A stretch of 64,000 nucleotides of DNA from the NCBI RefSeq assembly GCF_007990755.1, contig NZ_BJXA01000009.1, forward strand, positions 102,329 to 166,328, read 5' to 3'. The translations under genes were made by a program, and so were the position numbers. This DNA comes from Nocardia ninae NBRC 108245 (GTDB lineage: Bacteria; Actinomycetota; Actinomycetes; Mycobacteriales; Mycobacteriaceae). Of this stretch, positions 6,843-53,447 are shown in pieces. Every line of letters begins with the position of its first letter. Positions within the stretch are counted from its first letter, which is position 1. The notes below the pieces were generated by a model. The model was given only the letters and a program-made list of their open reading frames with translations. It had not been told where the DNA came from and searched no databases.

Positions 6843-7290
6843 CGAATCCTTTGTGCACGATGACGGTGTGTATGTGATCGCGGTCGAGGATGGCGTCAAG
6901 GGGTATCAGCGACATGATGGCCCGTGGCCCACTCTTGAGGAAGCGCAGGCTTACGTCGACGCGCAGAATGCGGACTTGGGCCTGTCACCAGAGCAGGCGC
7001 GGGCGATGGTTCAGTCCAGCCACTTCGGCGTTCCTTCAGCTGTCATTCTCGCGGAGCAGAACCCGGCGGGACGCGACGGCGAGGTCCGGTGTCGGCACGG
7101 CAACGCGATCGGTTCTCAGATCGGGTGCCAGCAATGCCAGGAGCAAGAGCGCGCGAAGCACTTGGCCGAGGTCGTGGGCATTGAGGTCCCCTGGCTCAGT
7201 GACCGAATCCAGGTGCGATGTGTCCTATGTGGTTGTGCGGCTGACGATTCCGGCCACGTGGGCACTCCTATCTCTGCGATGGCGGGATGA
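6814..7290 (+). CDS. Hypothetical protein with C-terminal Cys-rich segment
   Basis: 158 aa from the ATG at 6814, with a strong AGGAGG seven bases upstream. The C-terminal half contains C-R-H...C-Q-Q-C and C-V-L-C-G-C spacings, consistent with one or two zinc sites. The N-terminal part is a small beta/alpha unit. Overlaps the next gene by four bases. Confidence 0.65.
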   Translation: MGSRFALHTDESFVHDDGVYVIAVEDGVKGYQRHDGPWPTLEEAQAYVDAQNADLGLSPEQARAMVQSSHFGVPSAVILAEQNPAGRDGEVRCRHGNAIGSQIGCQQCQEQERAKHLAEVVGIEVPWLSDRIQVRCVLCGCAADDSGHVGTPISAMAG

Positions 7291-8138
7291 ACGACCTTGT
7301 CGGCCGGTTACTGGTCGTTGATTGGGACTACTTCTTCCCGAACCCCGCGATGATGACCGGTCCGGCGGGCGTGGATGCGTTCAACTACGACTGGGGCCAC
7401 GTCGAGTCGCCGTTCATGATCAACGACGTTTGGCAGACACGACTGACTCCGTTCGTGGAGCAGAATTTGCCGTTACCCCGTTGCGAACGATTCGAGGGCT
7501 TCTGGTCCCGGTTCGGCCTGTCGCAGTGGGAGGTCGGTTCGATATTCGTGTGTGAGTCGAACATGGAAGCGGGAGAGATCTTTCCAGCATCGTCGGTCCT
7601 CGATGCGTCAGACGACGCGGACGGATGGGCGGAGGTGTGGCTGTTCGACGCTCACCATGACTGCGGTTACCCCTCGGCCCTGCACCTCCGAGAACGGAGC
7701 CAATACGACTGCGGTAGCTGGATGGCCGAACACGCCGAGCGCGGTTCGGAACTCCACGTGCGCTACCCATGGTGGCGCGCCACCGAAGACGGCTCGACAT
7801 TCGCCGAAGTCGAGCCAGAGCCGTGGGTGCCGGTTGATCGGCGGTTGGATCAATGGCCCGATGCCGCAGAGGACTTGCCGGACAGTTGGGATGCGGTGGT
7901 GGTGTGCCGCAGCGGCGCATGGGTGCCATCCTGGAACGACGACCAATTCGATGTCTTCGTCGAATCCGCCGGGATACGCACTGTGTGGATCGACTCCAAC
8001 TTCGAAGCAGGGCCACGGAAGCAACCCGACCTTGCGCTGGCTCGGGCCGAATTGGACATCCGAGCAGAGCAGTATGCAGAGATCGCTGAAGCTAACCGGC
8101 GTCTGACCGTCCCGGCTAGTGATCAGGATGCTCGGTGA
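7287..8138 (+). CDS. Arginase/deacetylase-fold-like (UPF0489-like) protein, tentative
   Basis: 283 aa. An N-terminal 'LLVVDWDYFFP' strand, a central 'WLFDAHHDCGY' (D-x-H-x-D-like) and a later 'DAVVVCRSGAWVPSWNDD' motif recall the UPF0489 proteins, relatives of the arginase/histone-deacetylase fold with a metal-binding Asp/His cluster. The call is by motif only. It is the largest gene before the biosynthetic cassette, and coupled (ATGA) to its neighbours on both sides. Confidence 0.4.
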   Translation: MNDLVGRLLVVDWDYFFPNPAMMTGPAGVDAFNYDWGHVESPFMINDVWQTRLTPFVEQNLPLPRCERFEGFWSRFGLSQWEVGSIFVCESNMEAGEIFPASSVLDASDDADGWAEVWLFDAHHDCGYPSALHLRERSQYDCGSWMAEHAERGSELHVRYPWWRATEDGSTFAEVEPEPWVPVDRRLDQWPDAAEDLPDSWDAVVVCRSGAWVPSWNDDQFDVFVESAGIRTVWIDSNFEAGPRKQPDLALARAELDIRAEQYAEIAEANRRLTVPASDQDAR

Positions 8139-8440
8139 GTGCCGGTTTTCCGACCGAGGCAGACGTAGCCGATGGCTGGGAGATCAAAGAGTTGCCCGAA
8201 GTTGGTCGGGTGCTGGCGAAATGGGCCTATCGCCGATGGATGATCGTCTGGTGGGCCGAGAAGGAAGGGCGTTTCCAATGGCAGGTGCAGACCGACAAGA
8301 AGGCGCTGGACGGCGGGCCGAGTAAGACGGCAGCGGCGGCGAAGTCGGCGGCAGTCGCGCGCGCAAAACCGAAGCCGAAGCCGAAGCCGCGAGGAAACTT
8401 GTCGAGTCTGAAAGAGCGGCTGACGCTAGACGACTACTGA
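8135..8440 (+). CDS. Small basic protein with Ala/Lys-Pro tail
   Basis: 101 aa from the GTG at 8135 (GTGA overlap). The first 60 residues are Trp-rich. They are followed by a low-complexity Ala/Lys stretch and a (Lys-Pro)4 run before a short 'LSSLKERLTLDDY' tail. The basic tail suggests nucleic-acid contact. Function unknown. Confidence 0.6.
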   Translation: MSAGFPTEADVADGWEIKELPEVGRVLAKWAYRRWMIVWWAEKEGRFQWQVQTDKKALDGGPSKTAAAAKSAAVARAKPKPKPKPRGNLSSLKERLTLDDY

Positions 8441-8495
8441 GTGTTTAGGCGTGGCCGCCAAGGGATCGGCTGCGTGTTGTTCGAAGGAGGGGAAG

Positions 8496-8825
8496 ATGCC
8501 CGAATCGGTACGGATCGGCGGCAAACGACTACATCAGATGTCGCCCGTGGAACGGGGCAATTGGCTGAGGCGCATTGGGGCGCGACTTGACCAGCTGGAT
8601 AGACGAGGGCGAACGGCAGAGGCTGCGATCGTCGCGGCGAAGAGCCGGATTGTTGTCGCGCGGGCAGAATTGGAAGCTGCGGAAGCGGCGTACGAGGATG
8701 CTTTGCAGCACCGATCTGGCATCGATGACGATATCAATGCTGTGCGCTCCTCATTGCAGGATTTCGATGTTAATGAGCTGGCGGCAATAGGGATCGTTCT
8801 GCCAGCCTTCGATACGGATCGATAG
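8496..8825 (+). CDS. Coiled-coil hypothetical protein
   Basis: 109 aa from the ATG at 8496, preceded by GAAGGAGGGG, so this start is preferred over the frame opening at 8451. Residues 30-80 are a continuous Ala/Glu/Arg-rich helix typical of a coiled coil. No catalytic motif. Confidence 0.65.
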   Translation: MPESVRIGGKRLHQMSPVERGNWLRRIGARLDQLDRRGRTAEAAIVAAKSRIVVARAELEAAEAAYEDALQHRSGIDDDINAVRSSLQDFDVNELAAIGIVLPAFDTDR

Positions 8826-8844
8826 CCACACGAAGCGATAAACG

Positions 8845-8878
8845 ACAGGGTCTGTGCTCAACTGAGCACAGACCCTGT
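8845..8878 (+). terminator. Strong intrinsic terminator
   Basis: ACAGGGTCTGTGCTCA pairs perfectly with TGAGCACAGACCCTGT across an AC centre and is followed by TTCTGTT. It closes the block before 8922. Confidence 0.75.
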
Positions 8879-8921
8879 TTCTGTTGCGGCAGAGATTGGA
8901 ATGCCGGTTAGGAGGAGATTG

Positions 8922-9152
8922 ATGTCGTTCTTCGGAGCGTTGGCTCAAATGCGCGACGAACAGGATCGCAGGACGGAGGAAGCTGCGAAGTATCGGTTCT
9001 CCGTCGAGGACAGCCGAAAGACTTGGCACAGTTTGGTTGCCGAGGCCCAGAGTGCGCTTGCGGCCGGAGACCACGACCGAGCTGATGCTTTAGCAGAGCA
9101 GGCCGAGATAGCCGAGGAGGTGTATACGGCGTCTGTGTGCGGCACTTTGTAA
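8922..9152 (+). CDS. Small helical hypothetical protein
   Basis: 76 aa. The ATG at 8922 is chosen over the ATG at 8901 because AGGAGGAG lies directly upstream of it. It is a Glu/Ala/Arg-rich helical protein with a coiled-coil feel and one Cys near the end. It is the last small gene before the cassette leader. Confidence 0.6.
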   Translation: MSFFGALAQMRDEQDRRTEEAAKYRFSVEDSRKTWHSLVAEAQSALAAGDHDRADALAEQAEIAEEVYTASVCGTL

Positions 9153-9430
9153 GCCGCGTGCGTCCCATCTTCGGCATCGAATGCATGTCGGAAGTTTCCC
9201 AGTGCAGCTCTGCGAACGATTCAATTGTCGAGATCCACGGATGATTGGTTCGCAGAGTTTCCACACTCGGGAATCAACGAAACAGACCACAGGCACAGGG
9301 ATCGACTGTAGACTTGCTTAGTCCCCCGAATCACCTGTGTATGACACGGTCGCGTGAAAGTCATTGACCGCGTGCGTGAACAGTTCGAGAGTGCGGTTCA
9401 CAATCCGTGATCTTCGAGAGATTTTTCCAT
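9153..9430 (+). other. Gene-free structured leader of the biosynthetic cassette
   Basis: No convincing gene in 278 bases. A hairpin is seen: CTCTGCGAAC (9208-9217) pairs with GTTCGCAGAG (9248-9257), with possible outer pairing AGTG (9201-9204) to CACT (9264-9267). A second, weaker pairing is CGGTC/GACCG near 9348-9370. Followed by a terminator at 9431, the layout resembles an attenuator or riboswitch leader. No known riboswitch class is recognised. Confidence 0.4.
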
Positions 9431-9465
9431 GAGGCACACACCTTTTCTGGTGTGTGCCTCATTTG
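9431..9465 (+). terminator. Intrinsic terminator directly before the methyltransferase gene
   Basis: A perfect 12-bp stem, GAGGCACACACC with GGTGTGTGCCTC, loop TTTTCT, then ATTTG. Only 31 bases separate the stem from the ATG at 9492, so it either insulates the cassette or acts as the off-switch of the leader. Confidence 0.75.
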
Positions 9466-9491
9466 TCTTTACAGGAAGGGATATAGACCTG

Positions 9492-10169
9492 ATGAGCAAT
9501 GACGAGCTCAATTACTACACCACTCCACGTTCAACACCCTCGGGCAGCGAGACGATCTTCGGAATTTGGGAGCGTGGAGACTCTTTCAACGATTCGGTGA
9601 CGCCGTCAACCTTCGTCCCCGAATACCGATACCACATGATGATGAAACTTCTGTCGCTAACCAGCGAGGGCGACGCCGTATTCTCAATCGGCTGTGGAAA
9701 TGCCGCCGTCGAGGGCGCTCTTGTCGAGCGTGGACGGCTGGTCCACGCCGTAGATCTGTTCCCTGAAGCCGTTTCGCTCGCGCGGGCGAAGGGCGTCGAT
9801 GCGCATGTCGCGGACTTCTTCCAGACCTCGGCTGCCGACGTTGCGGGCTGCTCGGCGCTGTACGCCGATGGCATTCTTGGCCACCTGTTCGACCGCCACG
9901 ACGGCGTAGGCCCAGCGATTGACAAGCTCACCGATCTCGACCTGAACACCGGTATGCAGCTTGTGTTTTCGAACGATGCACCACCCGACCGGAACGCGCC
10001 ATACGCGGAGCATGAGCGGGTGCCAGGTTTCTGGTACGTCTCCAAGGACTACCTCGCCGAAGAGTTGACGGATGCCGGACTCTCCGTCAGCGAGAGCTAC
10101 TACTTCCCGTATGAGCGACCACTGAGCGGTCTCCGTAACCGCTCCATCTGTGTCGCTCACATTCGATAG
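9492..10169 (+). CDS. Class I SAM-dependent methyltransferase
   Basis: 225 aa from the ATG at 9492 with CAGGAAGGG upstream. The SAM motif I is 'VFSIGCGNAAVEGAL' (about residues 63-77), followed by an acidic strand end 'VHAVDLF' and 'DAHVADFF'. The substrate is not predictable. The N-terminal 60 residues ('YYTTPRSTPSG...SFNDSVTPSTFVPEYRYHMMM') are a cap-like extension. First gene of the cassette; presumably it O- or N-methylates a pathway intermediate. Not of DNA-methylase type: no DPPY or PC motif is seen. Confidence 0.75.
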   Translation: MSNDELNYYTTPRSTPSGSETIFGIWERGDSFNDSVTPSTFVPEYRYHMMMKLLSLTSEGDAVFSIGCGNAAVEGALVERGRLVHAVDLFPEAVSLARAKGVDAHVADFFQTSAADVAGCSALYADGILGHLFDRHDGVGPAIDKLTDLDLNTGMQLVFSNDAPPDRNAPYAEHERVPGFWYVSKDYLAEELTDAGLSVSESYYFPYERPLSGLRNRSICVAHIR

Positions 10170-10214
10170 AACACATTCTCAATTTCGCTCGAATTACCTG
10201 AAAGGGATTCGTCC

Positions 10215-11369
10215 ATGCCATCTTATTCAGACGATGGGATCGCTGAAAGAAGTGAGCACCGAGACCGTCTGTTGCAGATCGTCTCTAGCGTCGCCGATTC
10301 ATTGTGGGAGGGTGCCGACGCCAGCGAAGACAGTCGCGTTCTGGTCCCGGAGTCGATACGAATTCTCCGAGAGTCCGGGCTGATCAAGGCGTTGGCACCG
10401 GTAGATGTCGGCGGGTTCCAGGTTGACCCTGTGACCGAGATGGAACTGATCGCCGCTGTCACGGCGATCGACGGCGCAACAGGCTGGATGTTCTGGGCGC
10501 TGGCTGGCAGCACTGCGCGAGCAGCGTCCATGCTGCCCGAGGACGCGGTCACTGAGGTGTTCGGCAACGGGCAGTTCCCGCTCATCGCCTACGACGAACG
10601 CCCGTACGACAACGTGATTCGCATCCGCGATGGCCTCGCGGAGATCAACGGCACTTGGCGGTTCGGCACCGGAGTCAGTTGCGCCGACTGGGTGGTTGCG
10701 ATCGCCCACGCCGAAACATCGTCGACAGGAACCCCATTGATCGCGGCGATTGTGCCAACCAGGCATGTCGAGATCATCGACAGCTGGAATGCATCCGGAC
10801 TGTCGGGCACCGGCACAGTGGGCTATCGGATCGACGGCCTGGTGGTGCCGGAGCTACACACCTGGCCGTATCCGCCTTCGATGCCGGTACGCGGGGGCGC
10901 TCATTTCATCAGTCGCCGTGCGGCGATCAAACACCTCGGCTTCGCGTTGGGTCTGGCGCGCAGTTCCCTCGAGTGGTTCACCGACCACGTCATCGGTCGG
11001 CAACGCACAGCGGTGGTGTCGGCTTCGCTGTTTGCTGACCTGGCACGAGCGCGGCTGGACTTGGACGCCGCGTATGCGCTTGGCCTGAGCGAGGTCAGCA
11101 CGATCTGGATCGAAGCGGTGCGAACAAGCCACGTCACCGACCAGTCGTATCTGCGGTTGCGGGCAGTCGCCCGCCGAGTAACCGAAATCGCTATGGATGT
11201 GTGCGCACTGGCGGCGCGGTACGGGGATGCGTCGATGCTCGCCCGTCAGAACCCCCTGCAGCGGAACCTGCGGGATATCACGGCCGCCGCCGCGCACGCC
11301 GAGGTGAGTGCTGTGGTCCTGGACGAGTTCGGGACAGAACTGATCAAACAAGGTGGGGAGGAACGTTAG
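10215..11369 (+). CDS. Acyl-CoA-dehydrogenase-fold flavoprotein (group D monooxygenase-like)
   Basis: 384 aa from the ATG at 10215. Layout follows the acyl-CoA dehydrogenase fold: helical N-domain ('LRESGLIKALAPVDVGG'), middle beta domain ('GTWRFGTGVSCADWVV', 'SWNASGLSGTGT') and helical C-domain with 'IGRQR'. The 'GLSGTGT' segment and absence of an obvious catalytic Glu resemble flavin-dependent monooxygenases and N-oxygenases of this fold (HsaA, DszC, nitrososynthase types) more than true dehydrogenases. A separate flavin reductase would be needed. The next gene starts two bases after the stop. Likely role: oxidation or N-hydroxylation of an intermediate. Confidence 0.7.
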   Translation: MPSYSDDGIAERSEHRDRLLQIVSSVADSLWEGADASEDSRVLVPESIRILRESGLIKALAPVDVGGFQVDPVTEMELIAAVTAIDGATGWMFWALAGSTARAASMLPEDAVTEVFGNGQFPLIAYDERPYDNVIRIRDGLAEINGTWRFGTGVSCADWVVAIAHAETSSTGTPLIAAIVPTRHVEIIDSWNASGLSGTGTVGYRIDGLVVPELHTWPYPPSMPVRGGAHFISRRAAIKHLGFALGLARSSLEWFTDHVIGRQRTAVVSASLFADLARARLDLDAAYALGLSEVSTIWIEAVRTSHVTDQSYLRLRAVARRVTEIAMDVCALAARYGDASMLARQNPLQRNLRDITAAAAHAEVSAVVLDEFGTELIKQGGEER

Positions 11370-11371
11370 CT

Positions 11372-13285
11372 ATGAACAACCCTGTGATGACAGCGTTGCG
11401 GCCGGTGTACGCGCCGATCGTCGATGCTGAGGGCGGGTACTTCACGCTCAGGGATGGTCGCCGTTTCATGGATCTGGCATCGCAAACGCTGAATCTGGCT
11501 TTCGGGCAACGCGCGGCGGCTGTCACCGACGCTGTGATCGGACAGGCTCGATGTGTCCAGTTCGCCTCCAGTCGGTTCTCCACGGTGCCGTTTCTGGAGT
11601 TGAGCGCTGAACTTGCCCGGCTGGCCCCAGCGGGCTTGGATGCGGTGTCGCTGAAGATGAGTGACGGAAGCGACGCCGTGGAGACTGCGATGAAGATCGC
11701 GATGCTGCACACTCGCCGCCCCCATATCGGATGCCTGCCGGGAGCGTGGCACGGAGAAACCCACCTGACTCTCGGTCTGGCCAGTAGCCATCGTGGACGC
11801 ATCCTTGCCGACGACCGTGTCGCGGTGCATGCCGATGAGCCGACGATCGCGGCACTGACGCAGCTGGTCGCGGCTCGCCGCGATCTGGCAGCGGTGATCA
11901 TCGATCCGTTGATGGTGGCTCAGGGCCTGCCTGTCGAGGACATGCGCGAACAGCTACAGCGGCTGCGCGAGAGATGCGACGGCGCGGGAACGCTGCTGAT
12001 CTTCGATGAGATCCAAGCGTTCGGATGGTCGGTTGGCGGGCTTTTCACCACTGATGTGCACGGAGTCTCCCCTGACATCGTGTGTCTGGGTAAGGCGTTG
12101 GGGGCAGGTATGCCGCTGGCGGCCGTCGTCGCTCGCGACGAGCTATCGGCGGTGCTGGGTTACAACGACGCGGAGTTCACCGGAGGTGGTGGGCCGTTGG
12201 CTTGTGCGGCCGGGCTGGCGGGGCTTGAGGCATTGATCGGGATACAGGACGAGCTGCCGGTGCGGGCTGAGCAGTTCGGTGCCGCGCTCTGTGAGGTCTT
12301 CGACCGGTCGAAGTTCGACGTTCGCCGGGTGGGTCTGGTTGCCACGATCGCTCCGATTCAGGGGCGTTTGCGTGAGACCTGGGCCAATCAGGTCGTCGAG
12401 GGGGCAGCTGCCGCTGGGCTGTTCGTTCGCCTCACCGATCAGAATCGGCGATTGCTGGTCAAGCCTCCACACGTCCTGGCGATGGAGGAATTGCGGGCAG
12501 GGCTTACGCGGTTGGGGCGCATAGCCGATGAGGCGGCCAGTCGCGTGTTGTGGCGGCTGCCGGGATCGCTCGCCGACGAGACGACAGTGGTACGCAAACC
12601 TCTGAGGTCGAACCGGCATGCGGGTTACGTGACCGCGCTGCTGGACGTTGCCGCCGGGGATCTGGGAATGAAGGTCCGTGGGCCGGGTGCACAGCAGAAG
12701 CTCACCAGGGACCTGGCGGGCATCGGCGTTCCTGTGGCACCGATGTACGCGGTGCCTGGTGCAGATGCCGTGGACTACGGCTTCGTGCCTGGGCGCACCC
12801 TTCAGTGGGTGCTGTCGGCGCCGGAGACACCCGATTCGTGGGTGAACGGACTGGCATTGCGGCATCTGGAGGTGGTGGTTCGTGCCCACGACAACGGTAT
12901 GGTGATTGGCGATCGGTGGCCAGGTAATGCCATTGTGAACAACCGCGCCGAGCTGACGCTGATCGATTTCGAGCTTGGCTACGACGGGCCGATCCATGTC
13001 GCGGCGCTGTTCGAGGAGGCATTCTGCATCTTGCAGACTCTGGTAGCGATTCCCGCTGATCGGAGGATCAGAGACGATCTGTCGGCGCGGATGCTGGACC
13101 AGCTGGTAGCGCGGCACGGGAGCCAGCAGGCGGCAGCGATGCTGCGCGGACTTGTCCGGTTCTACGGTGATCCGGCTCGGCCGGTGCATTCGCACTCGGA
13201 CCCCGCGTCGCATTACACCGGGCTACTGTTGGCGGCATTGTCTCGGGTCACAGGCGATCAGCACCAGGACAACACACCGAATTGA
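11372..13285 (+). CDS. Class III PLP aminotransferase fused to a kinase-like domain
   Basis: 637 aa from the ATG at 11372. Residues 1 to about 400 are a class III (ornithine/GSA-type) aminotransferase: 'DGSDAVETAMKIA' for the phosphate cup, Asp212 in 'LIFDEIQAFG', and the PLP lysine Lys241 in 'CLGKALGAGMP'. Residues about 405-637 resemble a Bud32/aminoglycoside-phosphotransferase fold: hinge-like 'GFVPGRTLQWVL', catalytic-loop 'IGDRWPGNAIV' (Asp514, Asn519) and metal-binding 'LIDFELGY' (Asp532). Fusions of class III PLP enzymes with phosphotransferases are known for phosphorylation plus phospho-lyase chemistry, but there the kinase usually comes first. Here it is C-terminal. Confidence 0.75.
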   Translation: MNNPVMTALRPVYAPIVDAEGGYFTLRDGRRFMDLASQTLNLAFGQRAAAVTDAVIGQARCVQFASSRFSTVPFLELSAELARLAPAGLDAVSLKMSDGSDAVETAMKIAMLHTRRPHIGCLPGAWHGETHLTLGLASSHRGRILADDRVAVHADEPTIAALTQLVAARRDLAAVIIDPLMVAQGLPVEDMREQLQRLRERCDGAGTLLIFDEIQAFGWSVGGLFTTDVHGVSPDIVCLGKALGAGMPLAAVVARDELSAVLGYNDAEFTGGGGPLACAAGLAGLEALIGIQDELPVRAEQFGAALCEVFDRSKFDVRRVGLVATIAPIQGRLRETWANQVVEGAAAAGLFVRLTDQNRRLLVKPPHVLAMEELRAGLTRLGRIADEAASRVLWRLPGSLADETTVVRKPLRSNRHAGYVTALLDVAAGDLGMKVRGPGAQQKLTRDLAGIGVPVAPMYAVPGADAVDYGFVPGRTLQWVLSAPETPDSWVNGLALRHLEVVVRAHDNGMVIGDRWPGNAIVNNRAELTLIDFELGYDGPIHVAALFEEAFCILQTLVAIPADRRIRDDLSARMLDQLVARHGSQQAAAMLRGLVRFYGDPARPVHSHSDPASHYTGLLLAALSRVTGDQHQDNTPN

Positions 13286-13298
13286 CGGAGGTTTTCGA

Positions 13299-15131
13299 AT
13301 GTGCGGCATTGTGGGGATGACCTCACCAAATGCGAACGTCACCGGATCGGCGGCGACGCGTTTGGCGGTCCTCGAATACCGCGGCTACGACTCCTGGGGC
13401 GTGGTCGCCCTAACCGAGGATGCTGGGCTATCGGTTACCAAGGACGTGGGGTCCATCGGCAGGGCGCTCGGAGCGGGTCTCAATGACCGGCTCCCGGCGT
13501 CGTCGCTGGCGCTCGGGCATACCCGATGGGCTACCCACGGCGGTGTCACTCAGGCCAACGCGCACCCGCACCTGTCCTTCGACGGTTCGGTGGCGATCGT
13601 TCACAACGGAGTGATCGAGAACCACGCGCAGCTGCGCCGGGAGTTGGAAGCCGACGGCATCAGTTGTGTGTCTGGCACCGATTCCGAGATTGCGGCGCAC
13701 CTGATCGCGCGCTTCCTCGGACAGGGGCACTCGATTGTGGAAGCCATTGCGGCGGCGACGAGGCGGCTGACTGGCGAGTACGCGTTGGCGGTATTGGCCG
13801 TGGCTGACCCGGTGACGGTGTGGGGAGCCAAACGCAAGAGCCCGCTACTGGCTGCGCACGACGGCACGCTGGGTGTGTTGGCTTCGGATCAGATGGCGTT
13901 GGATGCGACCAGCGTTCTGATCCTGGAGGACGGTGACATTGTGGCGCTTCGCCCTGATGGAGCCGAGCTGTTCACCACGGGCACCGATGGCGCTCCCGAG
14001 CCGATTGAGCGTGCGTACACCCGCCTCGATGGCGGGCACGAGAAAGCGGACAAGGGCCAGTACCCGCATTGGATGATCAAGGAGATCCACGAGACCCCGG
14101 ATGCGGTTCGCAACGCGCTGACCTTGCCCGCTGATCAGTTCTCCTCGGTTCTGGCCAGCGACCGTCCGGCGACGATCATCGGTGCGGGCAGCGCCTATTA
14201 CGTGGCGTCGATGGGGTCCTACTTGTTGTCCTCGCTGGCGGGTGTGCGAGCAACAGCACTTCCTGCCGACGAAGCGGAGTACTTGACCCATTTTCGGGCC
14301 GGTGACCCGCTCATCGCGGTGTCACAGAGCGGGGAGACCTTCGACACCTTGGAAGTGTGTCGCGCTGCTGTCGCTGAGGGCGCGGTGCTGACTTCCATCT
14401 GCAACGTGCCGAATTCGACCCAAGAGCGGTTGGCCACCCACCGATTGCAGCAGCGCTCCGGCCCGGAGATCTGTGTGCTGTCGACCAAGAGCATCGTTTC
14501 GCAGGTCGTGCTGCTGGCGCGTCTGGCGTTGGAAACCGGCCGCGCGAACGGCACCGTGACCGATGCGGGGTACCGCCAGCACATGGAGTCGCTGGAGCGG
14601 CTGCCCGAGACCCTGACCAACTGCATCGCAACCCTCAGCACAGCCGTGCAAGGGCTGGCGGCGAAGTACTCGACGGTGGCCGACTGGTTCTTCCTTGGTC
14701 GGGGCATCCTTTACCCCGCAGCGTGCGAAGGCGCGTTGAAGTTCAAAGAAGTCAACTACCACCATGCCGAAGGCATGGCGGCTGGGATGTTCAAGCACGG
14801 CACCATCTCGTTGATCGACGAGAATTTCTACACGGTGGCGTTGTTGCCGTCCAAGCAGGCTGCGCCGGACCGCTACGGGGCAACGTTGGCAGCAGTGAGC
14901 GAGGTCGCGGCCCGCAGCGGACCGGTGATCGGTATCGGTCCTGCCGACATCGAGGCCGACGACGTGGCCGACTTCGTGGAGTACCTGCCGCTGCCCTATC
15001 ACGGCGACGACATCGCCGATCTGGTGTTGCAGCTGGTCGCCGGGCAGATGCTTGCCTACTACTGCGCGCTGGATCTGGGCCGTGAGATCGATCAGCCCAG
15101 GTCGCTGGCCAAGTCGGTCACCGTGCGTTAG
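13299..15131 (+). CDS. glmS: Glutamine-fructose-6-phosphate aminotransferase paralogue (GlmS-like)
   Basis: 610 aa from the ATG at 13299 with GACGGAGG upstream, full family length. The glutaminase domain is intact: Cys2 nucleophile, 'HTRWATHGG' (Trp77, His80), 'NGVIENH' and 'GTDSE'. Two SIS sugar-isomerase domains follow with 'SQSGET', 'ALKFKEVNYHHAE' and the C-terminal lid 'LAKSVTV', ending in Arg where Glu is usual. It should make glucosamine-6-phosphate from fructose-6-phosphate and glutamine, or act on a related ketose phosphate. A host would already have its own glmS, so this copy probably serves the cassette. Confidence 0.85.
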   Translation: MCGIVGMTSPNANVTGSAATRLAVLEYRGYDSWGVVALTEDAGLSVTKDVGSIGRALGAGLNDRLPASSLALGHTRWATHGGVTQANAHPHLSFDGSVAIVHNGVIENHAQLRRELEADGISCVSGTDSEIAAHLIARFLGQGHSIVEAIAAATRRLTGEYALAVLAVADPVTVWGAKRKSPLLAAHDGTLGVLASDQMALDATSVLILEDGDIVALRPDGAELFTTGTDGAPEPIERAYTRLDGGHEKADKGQYPHWMIKEIHETPDAVRNALTLPADQFSSVLASDRPATIIGAGSAYYVASMGSYLLSSLAGVRATALPADEAEYLTHFRAGDPLIAVSQSGETFDTLEVCRAAVAEGAVLTSICNVPNSTQERLATHRLQQRSGPEICVLSTKSIVSQVVLLARLALETGRANGTVTDAGYRQHMESLERLPETLTNCIATLSTAVQGLAAKYSTVADWFFLGRGILYPAACEGALKFKEVNYHHAEGMAAGMFKHGTISLIDENFYTVALLPSKQAAPDRYGATLAAVSEVAARSGPVIGIGPADIEADDVADFVEYLPLPYHGDDIADLVLQLVAGQMLAYYCALDLGREIDQPRSLAKSVTVR

Positions 15132-15151
15132 CCGACCACCCCCCAACCATA

Positions 15152-15188
15152 AGAACCCCGACCGGTTTCGACCGGTCGGGGTTCTTTC
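15152..15188 (+). terminator. Strong intrinsic terminator after the glmS-like gene
   Basis: A perfect 15-bp stem (AGAACCCCGACCGGT with its complement) closed by a TTCG tetraloop and followed by TTCGTTG. It splits the cassette between the glmS-like and MetRS-like genes. Confidence 0.85.
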
Positions 15189-15251
15189 GTTGTGGGCGTA
15201 TGGCGGCGGAAAACCACACAGAATCCATTGATACGAAAGGGGTTATCTCAA

Positions 15252-16799
15252 TTGCGTTGGCTACTGATTCCCATGCAACCCACACCGAACGGCCGCCTGC
15301 ACATCGGGCACGGAGGCGGACCGTACCTGCGAGCCGATGTCATCGCCCGCGCGTTGCGCCGCGACGGCGAACACGTCGAGATCATCAGCGGCAGTGATGC
15401 TTACGAGAACTGGGTACTCGCCGATGGCCTCGCCACTGGGCGCACGCCCGAACAGACCTGCGCGGTGTATCACGCAGGGATCAAATCTGATCTGGATCGG
15501 CTTGGTGTCGAGCTGAATCTGTGGGTCGACCCTCTCAGCGCCGAGCACAACAGTGGCTACGTCCACGTTCAGGAACGATTGCTCTCGACGCTGTCTGATA
15601 GTGGTCGCGCCGAGCTGTTCACCGAGCGGGTGCCTTTGGGTGTGGAATCCGGTCGGCCGCTGATGGGAGTGTGGATCGCGGGCGAGTGCCCCAACTGTGG
15701 CGCGGCGGCAGGCGGGAACTCCTGTACCGCATGCAGTGACAGCTTCTCCCCCGACTTGCTGCGCAATCCGCGCTCGCGGTTGACGAACGAGCAGATCACT
15801 TGGGTTGATCGCCCGAATTGGTTCGCTCCTGCCCCCCGCGCGGTGTTGGAAGCGTTGGCCGCTACCGGCCTGCCGGGGCAGTTCCAGGTTCCGGTGCAGA
15901 CGTTCCTCGACAGAAAGGGCGCGCGAATCCGGTTGTCGCTGCCTGGCGAATGGGGCGTGCCTAGCTCGCTGGCTCCGACTGATTCGGTGCTGTCGAACAC
16001 CTACTACGGCTATAGCGTGTATTGTGGCCAGCTCTACAGCGACCTGCGTTCCGGTGTCGGCAACGCGTTGGACCGCGATTCCGGAGTCACCGTGGTCGGG
16101 CTGTTCGGCAGCGACAACTCGATCGCCGGGTTGGTGGCTCCGCAGGTGCTGGCGGTTGGTACCGCGTTCAAGGCGTTCGACCACACGGTGATCAACCACA
16201 TGCTGCATTTCGAGGGCCGCAAATGCAGCACCAGCCAGCAACACGGCATCTGGATCGAAGACGTGATCGACAAGACCAACGTCAGCAGCGACGAGCTGCG
16301 CTACTGCCTGACCCAAATCCCGTTGGACCGCAACGTTTCCGACATCGATACCGGAAGGATCGTCACCACGGTCAACCGGCTGAGGGTGTGGCGAACAGCC
16401 ACATTGGGGCCGGTGCTGGAGGCGCTGAAGCCTGGTGCCAGCACTCCGACAGCGCCAGTTGAGTTGCGGGCAGCACTTGAGCGCCAACAGCAATACTTGC
16501 GACCTCCGGTGGTGGACCTGGTCGATGCAACCGATGTTCTGACTGACTGGATGTTCAAGCGCGATCCCCAGCATTGCGAGACTGAGGCCGTTGCCGAATG
16601 GCTGCTCGGTGTCGCACTTCTGGGCGCGCCGATCCTGCCGATATTGGCCGGGCAGCTGTGGACGGAACTCGGGTTGCCTGGTGTCCCATCGCGTTCCGTA
16701 CTGAATCACGCGGTGCAGCTGTCTCGAACGTCAGCGGGGCTTGATCTGAGGATGCATACGCCTCTGAATGCCGAGGACATCGCGGGCATCGCCAGATAG
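15252..16799 (+). CDS. MetRS-like class I aminoacyl-tRNA synthetase paralogue
   Basis: 515 aa. The TTG at 15252 is preferred: GAAAGGGG precedes it and the protein then begins directly with the Rossmann strand. HIGH is intact (residues 17-20 in 'GRLHIGHGGG'). A zinc knuckle has four Cys (146, 149, 158, 161), as in MetRS. 'GLFGSDNS' takes the place of the MetRS 'GKDN' strand, and the KMSKS loop is altered to 'RKCSTS' (324-328). A reduced helical C-terminal region follows. Smaller than a standard MetRS core and divergent in anticodon-binding parts. Likely an amino-acid-activating ligase in the pathway (compare MshC, a CysRS-type enzyme that joins Cys to a glucosamine). A drug-resistant synthetase is the alternative. 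Confidence 0.75.
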   Translation: MRWLLIPMQPTPNGRLHIGHGGGPYLRADVIARALRRDGEHVEIISGSDAYENWVLADGLATGRTPEQTCAVYHAGIKSDLDRLGVELNLWVDPLSAEHNSGYVHVQERLLSTLSDSGRAELFTERVPLGVESGRPLMGVWIAGECPNCGAAAGGNSCTACSDSFSPDLLRNPRSRLTNEQITWVDRPNWFAPAPRAVLEALAATGLPGQFQVPVQTFLDRKGARIRLSLPGEWGVPSSLAPTDSVLSNTYYGYSVYCGQLYSDLRSGVGNALDRDSGVTVVGLFGSDNSIAGLVAPQVLAVGTAFKAFDHTVINHMLHFEGRKCSTSQQHGIWIEDVIDKTNVSSDELRYCLTQIPLDRNVSDIDTGRIVTTVNRLRVWRTATLGPVLEALKPGASTPTAPVELRAALERQQQYLRPPVVDLVDATDVLTDWMFKRDPQHCETEAVAEWLLGVALLGAPILPILAGQLWTELGLPGVPSRSVLNHAVQLSRTSAGLDLRMHTPLNAEDIAGIAR

Positions 16800-16813
16800 C
16801 CGCGAACACCAAG

Positions 16814-16844
16814 GCGGGGCGGGCAGTGTGCCCGCCCCGCTTTT
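16814..16844 (+). terminator. Intrinsic terminator before the dapF-like gene
   Basis: An 11-bp GC-rich stem (GCGGGGCGGGC with GCCCGCCCCGC), loop AGTGT, then TTTTGTTT. It lies 22 bases before the next start codon. Confidence 0.85.
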
Positions 16845-16866
16845 GTTTGAAAGGAGCAGTGACATC

Positions 16867-17655
16867 ATGTATTTCGACAAACTGCACGGGGCTGGCAATG
16901 ACTTCATTCTCGTCGACAGCGTCGAAGCCGGTTGGGCAGATAGAGCAGAAGAGCTGTGCGCTCGCCGCACCGGCATTGGTGCGGACGGACTGGTCATTGT
17001 CAGTCGGCTCAGCGCCGATCCGGTGGTTGTGGATGTGGCGGTGTTCAACCGCGATGGTTCGGTCGGTCCCATGTGCGGCAATGCGTTGCGCTGTGTGGCG
17101 TGGGTCGTGGCCAGGGACTCGTCGGTGGCGGAGATGACGCTGATCATGTCCGGCGTTGAGCATCAGGCGCGGGTAGACGCTGCGGGGGTATGGGTGACCG
17201 CCGAGGTCGGCGAGGTTCACTCGGAGTTCCTGCGTGCCGAGGTGGATGGGCACACGATGTGGTTCGACTCGGCTTACACCGGCACCGAGCACATGGTGAC
17301 GATCGTGGAGAACGTCGATGAGGTCGATGTAGTCCGATGGGGCCGGGTAGTTCGCCACGATCGCGCACTTCCGTTGGGAGCGAACGTCAACTTCATCGAA
17401 GCTGTCGGCCCTCGAGAGCTCAAGATCCGGACCTATGAACGAGGAGTGGAGCAGGAGACCCTGTCCTGTGGCAGTGGAGCCGTTGCTGCGGCGGCGATTG
17501 CGAGTACACGTGATCTTCTCGAAGGTGATGGGCAGATAACCGTCCACAATCGTTCCGGGACACCACTGTTGGTGCGTCCCCACTCCGTACGGACCGCCCG
17601 AACTCGCTGGCTCGGCGGCCCTGTTACCCACGTCTTCTCCGGTCGGCTGACCTAG
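16867..17655 (+). CDS. dapF: Diaminopimelate-epimerase-like protein (DapF family)
   Basis: 262 aa from the ATG at 16867 with GAAAGGAG upstream. It opens with the family signature 'KLHGAGNDF'. The two catalytic cysteines are Cys70 in 'NRDGSVGPMCGNALRC' and Cys201 in 'ERGVEQETLSCGSG'. Length is a little below usual DapF (about 275). It should be a cofactor-independent amino-acid epimerase/racemase. A second copy beside GlmS and an amino-acid ligase suggests inversion of an amino-acid stereocentre in the cassette product rather than lysine or cell-wall supply. Last gene of the plus-strand block. Confidence 0.8.
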   Translation: MYFDKLHGAGNDFILVDSVEAGWADRAEELCARRTGIGADGLVIVSRLSADPVVVDVAVFNRDGSVGPMCGNALRCVAWVVARDSSVAEMTLIMSGVEHQARVDAAGVWVTAEVGEVHSEFLRAEVDGHTMWFDSAYTGTEHMVTIVENVDEVDVVRWGRVVRHDRALPLGANVNFIEAVGPRELKIRTYERGVEQETLSCGSGAVAAAAIASTRDLLEGDGQITVHNRSGTPLLVRPHSVRTARTRWLGGPVTHVFSGRLT

Positions 17656-17719: not shown

Positions 17720-18040
17720 TCAGCGGCGGGTGGTGTCGATGATGTTGGGGAAGCTGCTGGCGGCTCCTGAGCGGCGGCCGTTGGTGCGGATGTCCCAGCG
17801 GGTTCCGGGTGTCAGCTGCGCGTAGCGGTCGAAAGACCGGTTGCCTGCGCCGTATCCGTCGTTGACTGAGAACGTTCCGCAGGAGGTGATGACGCGTTTG
17901 TCGCCTTGGCGGCCGTCGATGATCATGCGGTCTTCGATGCGGCAGTTGGTGTGGAGTTGTTCGTTGCCGGGCGAGCAGCCGGTGGTGAGGGCCAGTGCTG
18001 CGAGAGTGGCCGCGATCAGTGCGGCGCGGGTGGTGGTCAT
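17720..18040 (-). CDS. Phage-type small lipoprotein
   Basis: 106 aa from the ATG at 18040 (GGAG nine bases upstream). It has a signal peptide with lipobox 'LTTGC' ending at Cys22, so it should be lipid-anchored outside the membrane. The mature part 'CGTFSVND...GNRSFDRYAQLTPGTRWDIRTNG...FPNII' follows the layout of small lipoproteins found in many phages. A role in superinfection exclusion is possible but unproven. It is the leftmost minus-strand gene, facing the cassette. Confidence 0.65.
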   Translation of the reverse strand: MTTTRAALIAATLAALALTTGCSPGNEQLHTNCRIEDRMIIDGRQGDKRVITSCGTFSVNDGYGAGNRSFDRYAQLTPGTRWDIRTNGRRSGAASSFPNIIDTTRR

Positions 18041-18060
18041 GGGGTGTTCTCCAGGTGTTG

Positions 18061-18082
18061 GGCCGCAGCGGATGCTGCGGCC
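18061..18082 (-). other. Hairpin between the lipoprotein gene and the gene at 18142
   Basis: A perfect 9-bp stem GGCCGCAGC/GCTGCGGCC with loop GGAT. It lies downstream of the minus-strand gene pair 18142-18872 and may terminate or protect its mRNA. No clear T-run. Confidence 0.45.
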
Positions 18083-18141
18083 GGGTGATCATCTTGCGGA
18101 GCTGGCCGGCATATGGTTGACCTGCGCTTTTCGTGCGGTGA

Positions 18142-18510
18142 TCAGGCTTTTTCCCAGATGTCGACGAGCTTGGTGGCGGGCCGGACTTCCTCGAATGCGC
18201 CGTCCCAGTGGCTGCCGCCGTGGGATTCGTAGACGCCGTGTTTGCGGAAGTGCTGGATATCGCGGTTCGTGTGTTCGACCTGGAAGACCATGTAGGTGGG
18301 CTTTTCCCAGTCGCCTTCGCCGCCGCCTTCGCAGTCGGACACGGTGATGCTCATGTCGCCGAGGGTGATTTTCGTGTCGTCGGACCAGACGAGGTGTTCA
18401 TGGACCGTCCACCAGCCCTGGCTACCCCGGTATTCCTGACGGACCTTGGGGTCACGCTCTCCGGTAGGCCAGTTCGCCAGCAGCTCTTCGAGTTCGGAGG
18501 CGGTGATCAC
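18142..18510 (-). CDS. Hypothetical protein, tandem paralogue of its upstream neighbour
   Basis: 122 aa from the GTG at 18510, overlapping the upstream stop (GTGA). The C-terminal half ('YMVFQVEHTNRDIQHFRKHGVYESHGG...EEVRPATKLVDIWEKA') matches the product of 18507-18872 position by position, so the pair is a tandem duplication. Cytoplasmic, acidic, Trp-containing. Function unknown. Confidence 0.65.
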   Translation of the reverse strand: MITASELEELLANWPTGERDPKVRQEYRGSQGWWTVHEHLVWSDDTKITLGDMSITVSDCEGGGEGDWEKPTYMVFQVEHTNRDIQHFRKHGVYESHGGSHWDGAFEEVRPATKLVDIWEKA

Positions 18511-18872
18511 GCGATGGCCTCCCACACGGTGACGACCTTGTCCACGCCGTGGACTTCCTCGGTCGGTCCTTCGTAGTAGCCGCCGTCGTGGGAGGCGTAC
18601 CAGCCGTTGCGCTTGAAGGTGCGGACCCTGTCGTGTTCGTCGGTGATGGTGAAGATGAACCAGTAGTCGTCGCCGGAGCCTTCGCCGCCGAAGTCGTCGA
18701 CGATGCGGGCGGTGCCGATGTTGGGCAGGATGGCGGCTTTGTCGCCGTAGCTGATGGCCTCGTAGAACTCGTCCCATGCGGTGTTGCTGGCGTCGCTGTG
18801 GTAGTCGTCATCCCAGTCCTCGTCGTCGAGGCGGGCAACGGCTGCGCCGATGTCATCGATGGTGTAGCTCAT
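18507..18872 (-). CDS. Hypothetical acidic protein, tandem paralogue of its neighbour
   Basis: 121 aa from the ATG at 18872. A copy of the 13-bp CACAACTGAATAG element lies 11 bases upstream and its 3' side provides the AGGGA binding site. C-terminal pattern 'FIFTITDEHDRVRTFKRNGWYASHDGGYYEGPTEEV...VWEAIA' is shared with the next gene. Strongly acidic N-terminus. Function unknown. Confidence 0.7.
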   Translation of the reverse strand: MSYTIDDIGAAVARLDDEDWDDDYHSDASNTAWDEFYEAISYGDKAAILPNIGTARIVDDFGGEGSGDDYWFIFTITDEHDRVRTFKRNGWYASHDGGYYEGPTEEVHGVDKVVTVWEAIA

Positions 18873-18883
18873 CGTCGTTTTCC

Positions 18884-18896
18884 CTATTCAGTTGTG
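18884..18896 (-). promoter_or_regulatory. Start-associated element CACAACTGAATAG, copy 1
   Basis: An exact 13/13 copy of the repeated element, followed by GGAAAACGACG and the ATG at 18872. It sits at the head of the 18142-18872 gene pair. Inferred to be a -10-type or start-associated expression signal. Confidence 0.6.
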
Positions 18897-19116
18897 GGTG
18901 TTTGGTTTTCAGTGGCGTTTGTGGATGAGCGGGCAGTCTGGTGTCGGAGCCGTTATTCCGGTTCGTTGCCAGCGCCTTCCGTGCGGGCTACGCTGTCGGC
19001 AACTCCCTTTCCGAGGACGACGCAAGAGCGTCGTTTGTGGCGAGAATCGGCGAGCCAGAGGACCGTCTACCCTGCGCACAGCGGGAGAGATATAGGCGGT
19101 CCTCGCTCATGGAAGT
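18897..19116. other. Spacer without a confident gene
   Basis: A 220-base gap between minus-strand genes. A plus-strand frame from GTG 18941 (68 codons, running antisense into the 3' end of the next gene) reads like protein over 'RAGYAVGNSLSEDDARASF' but has no binding site and the wrong polarity for this block. I leave it unannotated. The gap may instead hold the promoter for the genes leftwards of it. Confidence 0.4.
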
Positions 19117-20304: not shown

Positions 20305-20630
20305 GCCGCCTGCTTGTAGTGCACGGCGTGGAGGAGTTGGCGGGCGTAGCTGACCGCGCCGACGACGATGGCGTTTTCCACGGTCATGCCCAGGTATTCG
20401 GCGGCTTCGTAGCAGACGGCCAGCTCGTCGTCGGTGAACCGCAGATCCATGCTCTCGACAGTCGGTCCTGTCCGCTCCAACCTGGCGAACACGGTGTCGA
20501 AGGTGTCGGTGGTCGGAAGGGTGCCGGAAGCGAGCAGCGGGCGTTCGATCTCGGTCACGAAGTACCGGATGACGGCGCAGAAGTCCCGGACACGCTCGCT
20601 GTGCGTGGGGTTGGTCAAGTCAGTGTCCAA
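20301..20630 (-). CDS. Small helical hypothetical protein
   Basis: 109 aa from the TTG at 20630, overlapping the upstream gene by 11 bases and the downstream gene by four. Helical, with 'FTDDELAVCYEAAEYLGMTVENAIVVG' in the C-half. No motif recognised. Confidence 0.6.
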   Translation of the reverse strand: MDTDLTNPTHSERVRDFCAVIRYFVTEIERPLLASGTLPTTDTFDTVFARLERTGPTVESMDLRFTDDELAVCYEAAEYLGMTVENAIVVGAVSYARQLLHAVHYKQAA

Positions 20631-20892: not shown

Positions 20893-20897
20893 GCCGG

Positions 20898-22398: not shown

Positions 22399-22401
22399 TG
22401 T

Positions 22402-24666: not shown

Positions 24667-24703
24667 GATAGTTCCTATGAAATTGTTTGCGGGAGTGAAG
24701 ATT

Positions 24704-51092: not shown

Positions 51093-52703
51093 TTATGCGG
51101 ACAGCCTCAGATCCGGCTGCGCCAATTCCAAGGCCCGCTCACGCAGCAGCGAATTCAACACTGCGACCGGCGAAGTCGGCGACATCTCCAGCCTCGCATC
51201 CAACGCCGTGAACCACGCCTCGGTCAGGTCGGCCATCAGCCGGTCGATCATGACCTGGGTGATGTGGGTATACCGTGCCTGCATGGACGAGTCCTCGTGA
51301 CCAATACGTGAGTCGATCAGCTTTTGTGGTGTTCCCAACTCCTCCAGCAACGTCCTGTGCGAGTGCCGATTTCCATGCGGGGTCATGCCTTTCGCGATAG
51401 GCATCCAACACCCGTCCGATCTGCCGTGCGCGTTCCGCCCCCGCACAGGGATGCCGGGGAAGCTTTCGACGCTCACCGGCACCGGATGCTCTGGCGAAGC
51501 CTTACCGCGACTCGGGTACCAGCCTGATACTGCTGGTGTGTAGAGCCATGCGTAGAAGCCCGAGCGCCGCCAGTGCGCGGCTTCTGGCACTGCAATAGGT
51601 TTGGTGTACCCCAGCTCGTCAGCGGCGCGTAACACACGGCGACGCGTCAGCTCGGACACGTTGTCCCGGCCGCGCAGCACCGCTGATACAGCGTGGACTG
51701 TCACTTGTGCGTGCTCAGCGATCATCTTCTGCGTGATTCCGCTGGCGCTGCCTCGGCTTCGCCGTTTCGCCTGCCCTCGGAACAAATAAGTGAAGCCGTG
51801 GCATTCGCACGGCTGCGGGTTCGTTCGAGTGATGAAGTCAGCGATCAACCGCCACAGGAACTCTGGCAGGTCGATGTCGCGCTTGGACCCGTTCTTGGGA
51901 TCGCACCGCACGAGCTTTCCGCCGATTTCGGCAAGCTGCCATTCCACACGCAGGCGGCGTTTAGTCACGTAGGTGGTTTCCAGGCCGACCAGCTCCCCCA
52001 AGCGCACCCCTGTGAAGAACTTCACCATCATCGCGACAAACTCGTCGTCCCTGCCGGACAGCAGTGCCATGCGCTCGGCAATCAACAGCGCGCCGAGGGC
52101 GTTGGTGATGACCTTCTCCGGTGCCCGGTTCGCCTTCCTACCGACCCGGCGGCCTCGGTTCCGCTTACGTCGAGCCGGGTTCGTTCGAATCTTCCCGGCA
52201 TCGACAGCGTCTTCGAGGATGACGTGCAGCACAGCGCGGTAGACAGTAATGCTGTCGACGGCGTAACCCGCTGCGCGCAATGCCTTCTCCCAATCGGCGA
52301 CAGCTTTTCGACTGATCTCGCCCAACCGCATCGGCCCGAACGTCGGCAACAGATGGCACTGGATGTGGGACTCATAGTTATGGATCGTCGTGTCGGCCAG
52401 ATCCTGATCCTCCAGCCACTCTTCGACGAAGTCGGCGAACAACTGGTCGCCTCCGTCGGAGAGGTGCACCGTCCTCGACTCGAAGGGCAGTGTGGTGATC
52501 GCCACTGTCGGTGTGACATTGACCGAATGGGTTGTCGTCGTGATGATCCGGTACTCGATTTCCTTGACCTGGATCGCCTCCAGGGCAAGTTCCTTCGTGG
52601 GGTATCGATGGGGATTGCCATGCTCGTTACGGATCGTCTCGTATGTGCTCGGAGCGGTCTTGAAGCGGGCTTCCCAGTAGGACTTGCGGTTGATAGCAGG
52701 CAT
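51093..52703 (-). CDS. int: Tyrosine integrase with inserted LacI-type HTH
   Basis: 536 aa from the ATG at 52703. Core-binding SAM-like domain about residues 85-170. Catalytic Arg234 in 'FFTGVRLGEL', H-x-x-R as His443/Arg446 ('TPHGNRHSH'), His469 in 'IGHEDSS' and nucleophile Tyr478 in 'ARYTH'. Between the first Arg and the H-x-x-R box lies an extra segment, about residues 322-369, reading 'TQKMIAEHAQVTVHAVSAVL' and 'NVSELTRRRVLRAADELGY', a LacI-family headpiece. Longer than the usual about 400 aa because of it. Integrates the element at tRNA-Thr. Confidence 0.85.
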   Translation of the reverse strand: MPAINRKSYWEARFKTAPSTYETIRNEHGNPHRYPTKELALEAIQVKEIEYRIITTTTHSVNVTPTVAITTLPFESRTVHLSDGGDQLFADFVEEWLEDQDLADTTIHNYESHIQCHLLPTFGPMRLGEISRKAVADWEKALRAAGYAVDSITVYRAVLHVILEDAVDAGKIRTNPARRKRNRGRRVGRKANRAPEKVITNALGALLIAERMALLSGRDDEFVAMMVKFFTGVRLGELVGLETTYVTKRRLRVEWQLAEIGGKLVRCDPKNGSKRDIDLPEFLWRLIADFITRTNPQPCECHGFTYLFRGQAKRRSRGSASGITQKMIAEHAQVTVHAVSAVLRGRDNVSELTRRRVLRAADELGYTKPIAVPEAAHWRRSGFYAWLYTPAVSGWYPSRGKASPEHPVPVSVESFPGIPVRGRNAHGRSDGCWMPIAKGMTPHGNRHSHRTLLEELGTPQKLIDSRIGHEDSSMQARYTHITQVMIDRLMADLTEAWFTALDARLEMSPTSPVAVLNSLLRERALELAQPDLRLSA

Positions 52704-53049
52704 GTCACGTCTCCCACGTGTGCGGGTGGGAGACGTACAGCGCAACGGACGACTGTGCGACGACTTGCGTCATGGGGATCTCCTGGCGTCGTGCGCCGGG
52801 TCCGGCGCGAGGGACTAGGCCGACAACAGACACCCGTGTAGGCGTCGGTGTTGCCGGAATTCGCGCCGATCAAGTCCCTCGACGCACCTGCGGTGAGATA
52901 CACCAGCAGGTCAGTTGCGATAGCACGCCCAGCATAACCAGGTAATCGGATGGCGCGCAACGCTGTTCGCTGTCACCAGCAGCGGACGGCGACACGATCG
53001 GCGACACGCCGAAGATCGAGGCCGAAATCTGAACGGGCTTCGCTGCCGG

Positions 53050-53326: not shown

Positions 53327-53367
53327 TCATTACGAGTGAAGCGCTCTACCGACTGAGCTAAGGCGGC
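53327..53367 (-). tRNA. tRNA-Thr (anticodon CGT), 5' half only, at the element junction
   Basis: Read on the minus strand from 53367: GCCGCCT acceptor strand, D arm TAGCTCAGTCGGTAGAGC and anticodon stem-loop CTTCA-CTCGTAA-TGA, anticodon CGT (53332-53334). After TGA the sequence departs from any tRNA: no variable loop, T arm or complementary 3' acceptor strand. The break falls in the anticodon stem, marking the attachment core. The 3' half should lie at the other end of the element, outside the window. Confidence 0.75.
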
Positions 53368-53447
53368 GTGCCTTTCGGCGTGGCGAGTCTATCGTCTCGG
53401 GGGGTGGAACGCGAAAACGGGTGGTCACCGGGGCGGATCGGTCGGCG

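Follow-up and report, generated by a model that had tools for sequence, protein, structure and literature searches.

A four-gene core with an altered GlmS in a Nocardia prophage and its possible role in a masked antimetabolite pathway

Gene run, prophage and conserved core

We analysed a run of six genes on one strand of a 64,000-nucleotide stretch of the Nocardia ninae NBRC 108245 genome (the window, whose numbering is used wherever no other contig or locus is named). In order, the genes encode an S-adenosylmethionine (SAM) methyltransferase (MT), a flavoprotein with the acyl-CoA dehydrogenase fold (ACAD), a fusion of a class III aminotransferase with a Bud32/RIO-type kinase (ATK), an altered GlmS, a MetRS-like ligase (MetRSL) and a DapF-type epimerase (Table 1). 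A first-pass annotation, made from the sequence alone, had named these six families, and Pfam and NCBIfam matches bear them out, the MT assignment being weak. Gene starts were chosen from the start codon, the ribosome site and the relatives. The MetRSL start is a TTG codon preceded by GAAAGGGG. Position 9153, initially given as the beginning of the run, is the base directly after the stop codon of the preceding open reading frame (ORF). The ACAD and ATK genes are separated by 2 bases and the ATK and GlmS genes by 13 bases.

Table 1. Features of the gene run and of the surrounding element (window coordinates).
Feature	Position	Strand	Evidence
MT (SAM methyltransferase), accessory	9492..10169	+	Pfam Methyltransf_11, E 2.9e-4
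ACAD-fold flavoprotein, class D monooxygenase type, core gene 1	10215..11369	+	Pfam Acyl-CoA_dh_2, 1.6e-13
ATK (class III aminotransferase and Bud32/RIO-type kinase fusion), core gene 2	11372..13285	+	Aminotran_3, 3.7e-48
Altered GlmS, start MCGIVG, core gene 3	13299..15131	+	TIGR01135, above cutoff
MetRSL (MetRS-like ligase of hydrazine-synthetase type), core gene 4	15252..16799	+	NCBIfam model and tree
DapF-type epimerase, accessory	16867..17655	+	TIGR00652, above cutoff
Stem-loop before MT, 14-bp stem, terminator-like	9429..9462		Hairpin scan
Stem-loop in GlmS-MetRSL gap, 16-bp stem, terminator-like	15151..15186		Hairpin scan
Stem-loop in MetRSL-DapF gap, 12-bp stem	16814..16840		Hairpin scan
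Phage integrase	51093..52745	-	phrog_1, 1.4e-40
Right attachment (att) repeat, 82 bp	53327..53408		Identical to C9:62135-62216 at tRNA-Thr

The run lies within a prophage of about 93.5 kb, the right part of which is contained in the window, as evidenced by two identical att repeats and the phage genes between them. The repeats overlap a tRNA-Thr gene (anticodon CGT) and enclose PHROGs matches to terminase, portal, endolysin, integrase, RecE, RecT, SSB, primase/helicase, RNA ligase and polynucleotide kinase, so that an integrase and both structural and replication genes accompany the att sites. The element had been described as phage-like; this description is thereby borne out and extended to a whole prophage with defined ends. 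Phage records contained no near DNA match to window positions 18000-34000 and no match to MT, and their matches to MetRSL (9 records) and GlmS (38 records) are distant, all below 60% identity. Scans of viral contigs with ATK and MetRSL yielded no relative.

The genes for ACAD, ATK, GlmS and MetRSL occur in the same fixed order in six genomic places, namely the window and five other loci in Frankia sp. AiPa1 (L014, the same as L016), Nocardia bovistercoris (L015) and three more genomes of the same genus (L084, L085 and L086). Identity to the window proteins at the five loci is 50-54% for ACAD, 49-59% for ATK, 61-75% for GlmS and 51-58% for MetRSL. No tblastn match to MT or DapF (E 1e-3) was found within these loci, which were covered as stretches of 16-22 kb. 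The conserved unit is therefore made of four genes, to which MT and DapF are accessory and joined only in the window. The earlier description of a six-gene cassette holds for these four genes, which do co-occur elsewhere, but not for MT and DapF. All four core genes are under purifying selection, with pairwise dN/dS ratios of 0.12-0.47 (six pairs for each gene), and both halves of ATK are constrained (0.15-0.41).

The core is sporadic. Scored by an ATK alignment at E<=1e-60, ATK is present in 5 of 150 genomes of the genus, in 2 of the 401 genomes sampled from the family, in 1 of 35 from the Frankia order and in a single genome, that of the window itself, among 296 sampled from the phylum; with a single ATK at E<=1e-30, it is present in 3 of 394 genomes of a class sample, two of them with full-length matches. 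These samples overlap. A scan of genome contigs with ATK alone returned nothing, and its repeat with a three-row alignment returned 62 loci, which were compared by tblastn with the six window proteins (L018, L019 and L028 were also inspected). Near-full-length ATK matches occur among them only in L015, L016 and L017. One further candidate, in genome G168, was dropped, as only the aminotransferase part matched and the sequence has an internal stop. Contigs of 7.0 and 8.5 Mb carry two of the Nocardia core copies, which are therefore chromosomal. A sample of 10 ORFs flanking the other core loci, compared with PHROGs, included no structural or integrase family; the families found were regulators, a DNA-binding family and, beside the L085 core, one family of no known function.

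Among 72,556 plasmid records, only pTunz7 of Thiothrix unzii has a match over 80% of the ATK length. This 14-kb plasmid carries a two-gene version consisting of ATK and an altered GlmS only (L005, 3274-6969), beside ParA, a recombinase and small genes. GlmS thus accompanies ATK even where ACAD and MetRSL are missing.

Properties of the encoded enzymes

The cassette GlmS is a second copy, as the host genome has a separate, normal GlmS to which it is 37% identical. It is a full-length two-domain enzyme whose catalytic residues, including those of the glutaminase half, are present. Unchanged residues are Cys1, K485, E488, H504 and K603, as well as S347, Q348, S349 and T352 (E. coli numbering), which we take to have catalytic or substrate-binding roles. 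The six core GlmS proteins and that of pTunz7 form one clade against 32 canonical sequences (support 100/100; none of 500 label shuffles scored as low), although the Thiothrix and the Enterococcus-labelled rows are on long branches and their joining should be read cautiously. The canonical set leaves out a Campylobacter-labelled GlmS identical to that of E. coli and rows L099 and L089. At 30 positions that are at least 90% conserved across the 32 canonical proteins, none of the seven clade members has the canonical residue. These positions include A299, C300, A400, L486, E501, A508 and N600, along with E608 at the C-terminus, replaced by R in every one of the seven, and some of them adjoin catalytic residues in the sequence. 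A self-resistant target would be expected to show such a pattern, and so would an enzyme acting on a related substrate. A search with a degenerate GlmS motif pattern gave no matches.

In ATK, the N-terminal half keeps the class III aminotransferase motif with the pyridoxal phosphate (PLP) lysine. Pfam gave no match in the C-terminal half of the window protein; among four ATK members scanned, one matches APH (2.2e-4) and one RIO1 (4.5e-4) in this half. A four-row profile of the kinase half hit the chain of a Bud32-type kinase (E 2.2e-5), with GDRWPGN aligned to GDLTTSN and LIDFELGY to LIDFGLSV. The kinase motifs D-x4-N and IDFE are present in the window protein and intact in five of the six core ATKs and in that of Thiothrix, while they are lost in Frankia and in L017. 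A tree of eight ATK rows gave no resolution. L017, from an actinomycete metagenome-assembled genome (9027-12976), features a distant ATK with a degenerate kinase motif between a gene of the inositol-monophosphatase family and a zinc dehydrogenase gene. Phosphatase and dehydrogenase are the partner types of azasugar clusters, and they stand beside ATK only at this locus; neither is found among the cassette genes of the window. By analogy, the azasugar-like setting of L017 may bear on the kind of substrate that ATK uses, and on that only.

The nearest solved structures to ACAD are HsaA, XiaF and Rv3094c, which we take to be class D flavin monooxygenases. An amine N-hydroxylase activity is proposed for ACAD on the grounds of its partner MetRSL. 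Precedents are given in PMC11705231: in the valanimycin pathway, isobutylamine is N-hydroxylated by a two-component flavin oxygenase, and in the alanosine pathway, hydroxylation of diaminopropionate is hypothetically assigned to a flavin-dependent enzyme of acyl-CoA-dehydrogenase type.

The best NCBIfam model for MetRSL is MetRS, at 354 bits against a cutoff of 551. In the tree, where long branches occur, the six MetRSL proteins group not with MetRS but with MetRS-like proteins from Burkholderia arboris and Robbsia andropogonis. MetRSL keeps the HIGH and K[CL]STS motifs and Asp52, whereas none of the four residues Y15, W253, H301 and W305 (E. coli numbering), which presumably make up the methionine pocket of MetRS, is kept in the six proteins. 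On tree, motifs and NCBIfam scores, MetRSL is a MetRS-like catalytic protein of the non-tRNA type found in hydrazine synthetases. Both relatives have a cupin gene nearby: in Robbsia, it directly follows the MetRS-like gene, which is preceded by a lysine N-hydroxylase gene, and in Burkholderia it is about 1.2 kb downstream. At the six core loci, a tblastn search with five cupins, confined to the loci, found none; the lone match (E 0.41, at 28.5 kb of the window) is at chance level. According to PMC8664883, the MetRS-like domain of PyrN joins glutamate to N6-hydroxylysine without tRNA, and PyrN lacking its cupin gives an ester that passes to N-glutamyl-N6-hydroxylysine with a half-life of less than 10 min. 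As no cupin is found at the locus, this cupin-less reaction predicts, by analogy, an N-aminoacyl-N-hydroxy compound as the product of MetRSL. Elsewhere in the window genome, two ORFs of fused cupin-MetRS architecture, of hydrazine synthetase type, were identified by eye (L002 and L003, on contigs C34 and C100 of genome G000); judging from these, the strain may make other N-N compounds.

The accessory genes are rarer still. Among 148 genus genomes, MT has one homologue besides its own copy (65% identity, in G794) and DapF has one (56%), with no other cassette genes nearby. The G794 homologue of MT adjoins genes similar to diaminopimelate decarboxylase (LysA) and dapD, in a cluster (L132, reverse strand, about 7000-15600) that also contains asparagine-synthase-like and chlorinating enzymes. 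The window DapF is 38% identical to the host DapF. It has what we take, by eye, to be the two DapF cysteine motifs. As MT is linked twice to enzymes of diaminopimelate type, once through DapF in the window and once through the LysA-like and DapD-like genes of G794, use of a diaminopimelate-type amino acid by the phage version is at most suggested.

Readings of the cassette

The initial view of a biosynthetic cassette with amino-sugar and amino-acid-activating families inside a phage is supported by these data. For the conjugate of an amino acid and an amino sugar then envisaged, GlmS as the maker of the amino sugar is one of two readings. Modification of tRNA is unlikely, since MetRSL belongs with the tRNA-independent ligases of hydrazine synthetases, and the cassette analysis gave no positive evidence for DNA or surface modification. 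As far as sequence can tell, the pattern agrees more closely with a GlmS that is altered and self-resistant than with one that makes the amino sugar of a conjugate.

The explanation that we favour, with a probability of roughly 0.4, is that the prophage carries a self-contained antimetabolite cassette, in which ATK, ACAD and MetRSL would act in succession and the altered GlmS would confer immunity; gene association and published inhibitor chemistry are what points to this chain. In a first step, the aminotransferase half of ATK would aminate C2 of fructose-6-phosphate to a 2-amino-2-deoxyhexitol-6-phosphate, mimicking the intermediate of the GlmS reaction, and the kinase half would make or keep the phosphorylated form. 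If ATK does so, the product is 2-amino-2-deoxyglucitol- or 2-amino-2-deoxymannitol-6-phosphate. ACAD would then N-hydroxylate this amine, and MetRSL, acting as its relatives are reported to do, would adenylate an amino acid and transfer it to the hydroxylamine. As a cupin for N-N bond formation is missing, the product would settle as an N-aminoacyl-N-hydroxy conjugate, that is, a masked form. The substituted GlmS would serve as an inhibitor-insensitive copy of the target and protect the maker. In this phage, the added MT and DapF may tailor a diaminopimelate-type amino acid for the MetRSL step.

In PMC9272926, 2-amino-2-deoxyglucitol-6-phosphate is given as an inhibitor of GlmS with a Ki of 25 uM, the mannitol isomer is reported to be stronger, and the oxime of arabinose-5-phosphate has a Ki of 14.3 uM. 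The same text describes GlmS as a promising antimicrobial target, and inhibitors that resemble the intermediate as weak through poor cell entry, their use being limited by poor uptake. Should the antimetabolite explanation be true, one pathway would supply a compound, a solution to its delivery and a map of resistance, in the form of the inhibitor, its amino-acid mask and the immune GlmS. In that case, a hydrazine-synthetase ligase would also be seen to work without a cupin, and a phage to carry enzymes for a small-molecule antimetabolite. The wider proposal is of a natural GlmS antimetabolite of aminohexitol-phosphate type, masked by an N-hydroxy-aminoacyl group and accompanied by an immune GlmS, with ATK and altered GlmS as a portable poison-antidote core that phages and plasmids carry as a weapon or addiction device; this we consider doubtful.

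Several points weigh against the antimetabolite explanation. The substrates of all four core enzymes are proposals based on their families. Drift would be expected to fix many differences on the long branch that bears the 30 GlmS changes, which were counted without a null comparison; the changed residues at positions 302 and 303, in the substrate site, are shared with the host GlmS and were for this reason not kept as resistance candidates. We presume HsaA, XiaF and Rv3094c to be C- or S-oxygenases rather than N-hydroxylases, and neither an exporter nor a flavin reductase is encoded in the four-gene core. In the Frankia ATK (L014, 5549-7498), the ORF is intact but the catalytic Asp and Asn of the kinase are gone, which may mean that the kinase activity is not needed in Frankia. 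An assignment of ATK as an azasugar aminotransferase was rejected, as five ATKs have at best 4 of the 16 fixed residues of the consensus SGNXFR...PYCXRC, and the zinc dehydrogenase gene of L017 is on the opposite strand. Moreover, the two fused cupin-MetRS genes of the window genome mean that a cupin could act in trans.

The main alternative, which we regard as somewhat unlikely, is ordinary biosynthesis of an amino-acid/amino-sugar conjugate. GlmS, as a pathway enzyme, would supply glucosamine-6-phosphate or aminate a related ketose phosphate, MetRSL would join the amine to an amino acid in the manner of MshC in mycothiol formation, and ATK and ACAD would tailor the sugar. The co-occurrence of the four core genes and the catalytic completeness of GlmS, glutaminase half included, agree with such a pathway, and the GlmS changes could reflect another substrate. 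However, the host already has a GlmS, the ATK-GlmS pair is found without MetRSL and ACAD, and the relatives of MetRSL act on hydroxylamines.

A hydrazine-type pathway, forming an N-N bond on the hydroxylamine of an amino sugar or aminopolyol, is distinctly less probable. The cupin would come from elsewhere in the genome, for which the two fused cupin-MetRS proteins are candidates, or the rearrangement would be cupin-free. The family placement of MetRSL argues for such a pathway, as does the replacement of the lysine N-hydroxylase by a flavoprotein of an amine-oxidising type. In contrast to the two closest MetRS-like relatives, both with cupins near, no cupin is found at any of the six core loci, the search in the other five genomes covering the loci only. 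Least probable is a device by which mobile elements would enforce addiction or exclusion through a metabolite: ATK would turn a central metabolite into a poison, with the altered GlmS as antidote, at the expense of cells losing the element or of competitors. In its favour, no metabolic pair other than ATK and GlmS was seen on the 14-kb plasmid, the core sits in a prophage here and its distribution in the genus is sporadic, but two Nocardia copies are chromosomal and nothing points to a short-lived antidote.

The first-pass statement that no described phage system with this set was known is supported, as no such cassette was found described in the open literature, subscription papers being outside the scope. 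Partial likenesses were found. The hydrazine synthetases Spb40, Tri28 and PyrN (MetRS-like protein and zinc cupin) resemble the cassette in the HIGH and K-x-STS motifs and in the presence of a flavin oxygenase gene within one operon-like run, and it is with separate MetRS-like proteins of their kind that MetRSL groups. Unlike them, the cassette has no cupin, an ACAD-type oxygenase replaces the lysine/ornithine N-hydroxylase, and ATK and GlmS have no counterpart. Valanimycin-type assembly similarly pairs a two-component-type flavin oxygenase (VlmH/VlmR) with aminoacyl transfer to a hydroxylamine, although the transfer there is by the tRNA-dependent VlmA and not by a MetRS-like ligase, and no counterpart of VlmO or VlmB is seen among the cassette genes. 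Azasugar clusters consist of aminotransferase, phosphatase and dehydrogenase genes, and their aminotransferase aminates C2 of fructose-6-phosphate, as stated in PMC8382821. They share with the cassette a class III aminotransferase proposed to act on a ketose phosphate, and with L017 its neighbours; they differ in their consensus, absent from ATK, and in their phosphatase and dehydrogenase, both missing from the cassette, and the kinase domain is a feature of the cassette only. A second, altered copy of an essential enzyme is typical of clusters with a duplicated resistant target, and no cluster with a resistant GlmS was found described in the open literature. Phage-borne biosynthetic clusters, for which PMC10023795 refers to Dragos 2021, are similar in that a prophage may carry an interbacterial weapon, but the cassette is a four-enzyme small-molecule set. 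In a survey of prophages from 2406 actinobacterial genomes, clusters for known antiphage molecules were reportedly absent.

Transcription signals and neighbouring genes

A simple terminator scan of the window gave 6 sites against a shuffle mean of 5.5, hence no excess. A promoter scan found none, where shuffles averaged 1.4, and the two Rfam matches were both under the gathering score. Across the 64 kb there are six hairpins with a stem of 11 bp or longer; four of these are the three stem-loops of the gene run, all perfect, and one at 8845-8878. With stem-loops before MT and in the GlmS-MetRSL and MetRSL-DapF gaps, the run is probably divided into more than one transcription unit.

In the prophage, the polynucleotide kinase and RNA ligase genes form an RNA-repair pair at 21460-24666. 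Genes for MmyB-type regulators (PF17765) are found directly upstream of the core at L015 (6495-7268) and at L084 (12652-13407, minus strand), which suggests local control by a ligand in these two loci. In one Nocardia genome, a TIR-domain protein (PF13676 just under cutoff; phrog_13899), possibly a defence gene product, is encoded after the core (L085, 4829-5743, minus strand).

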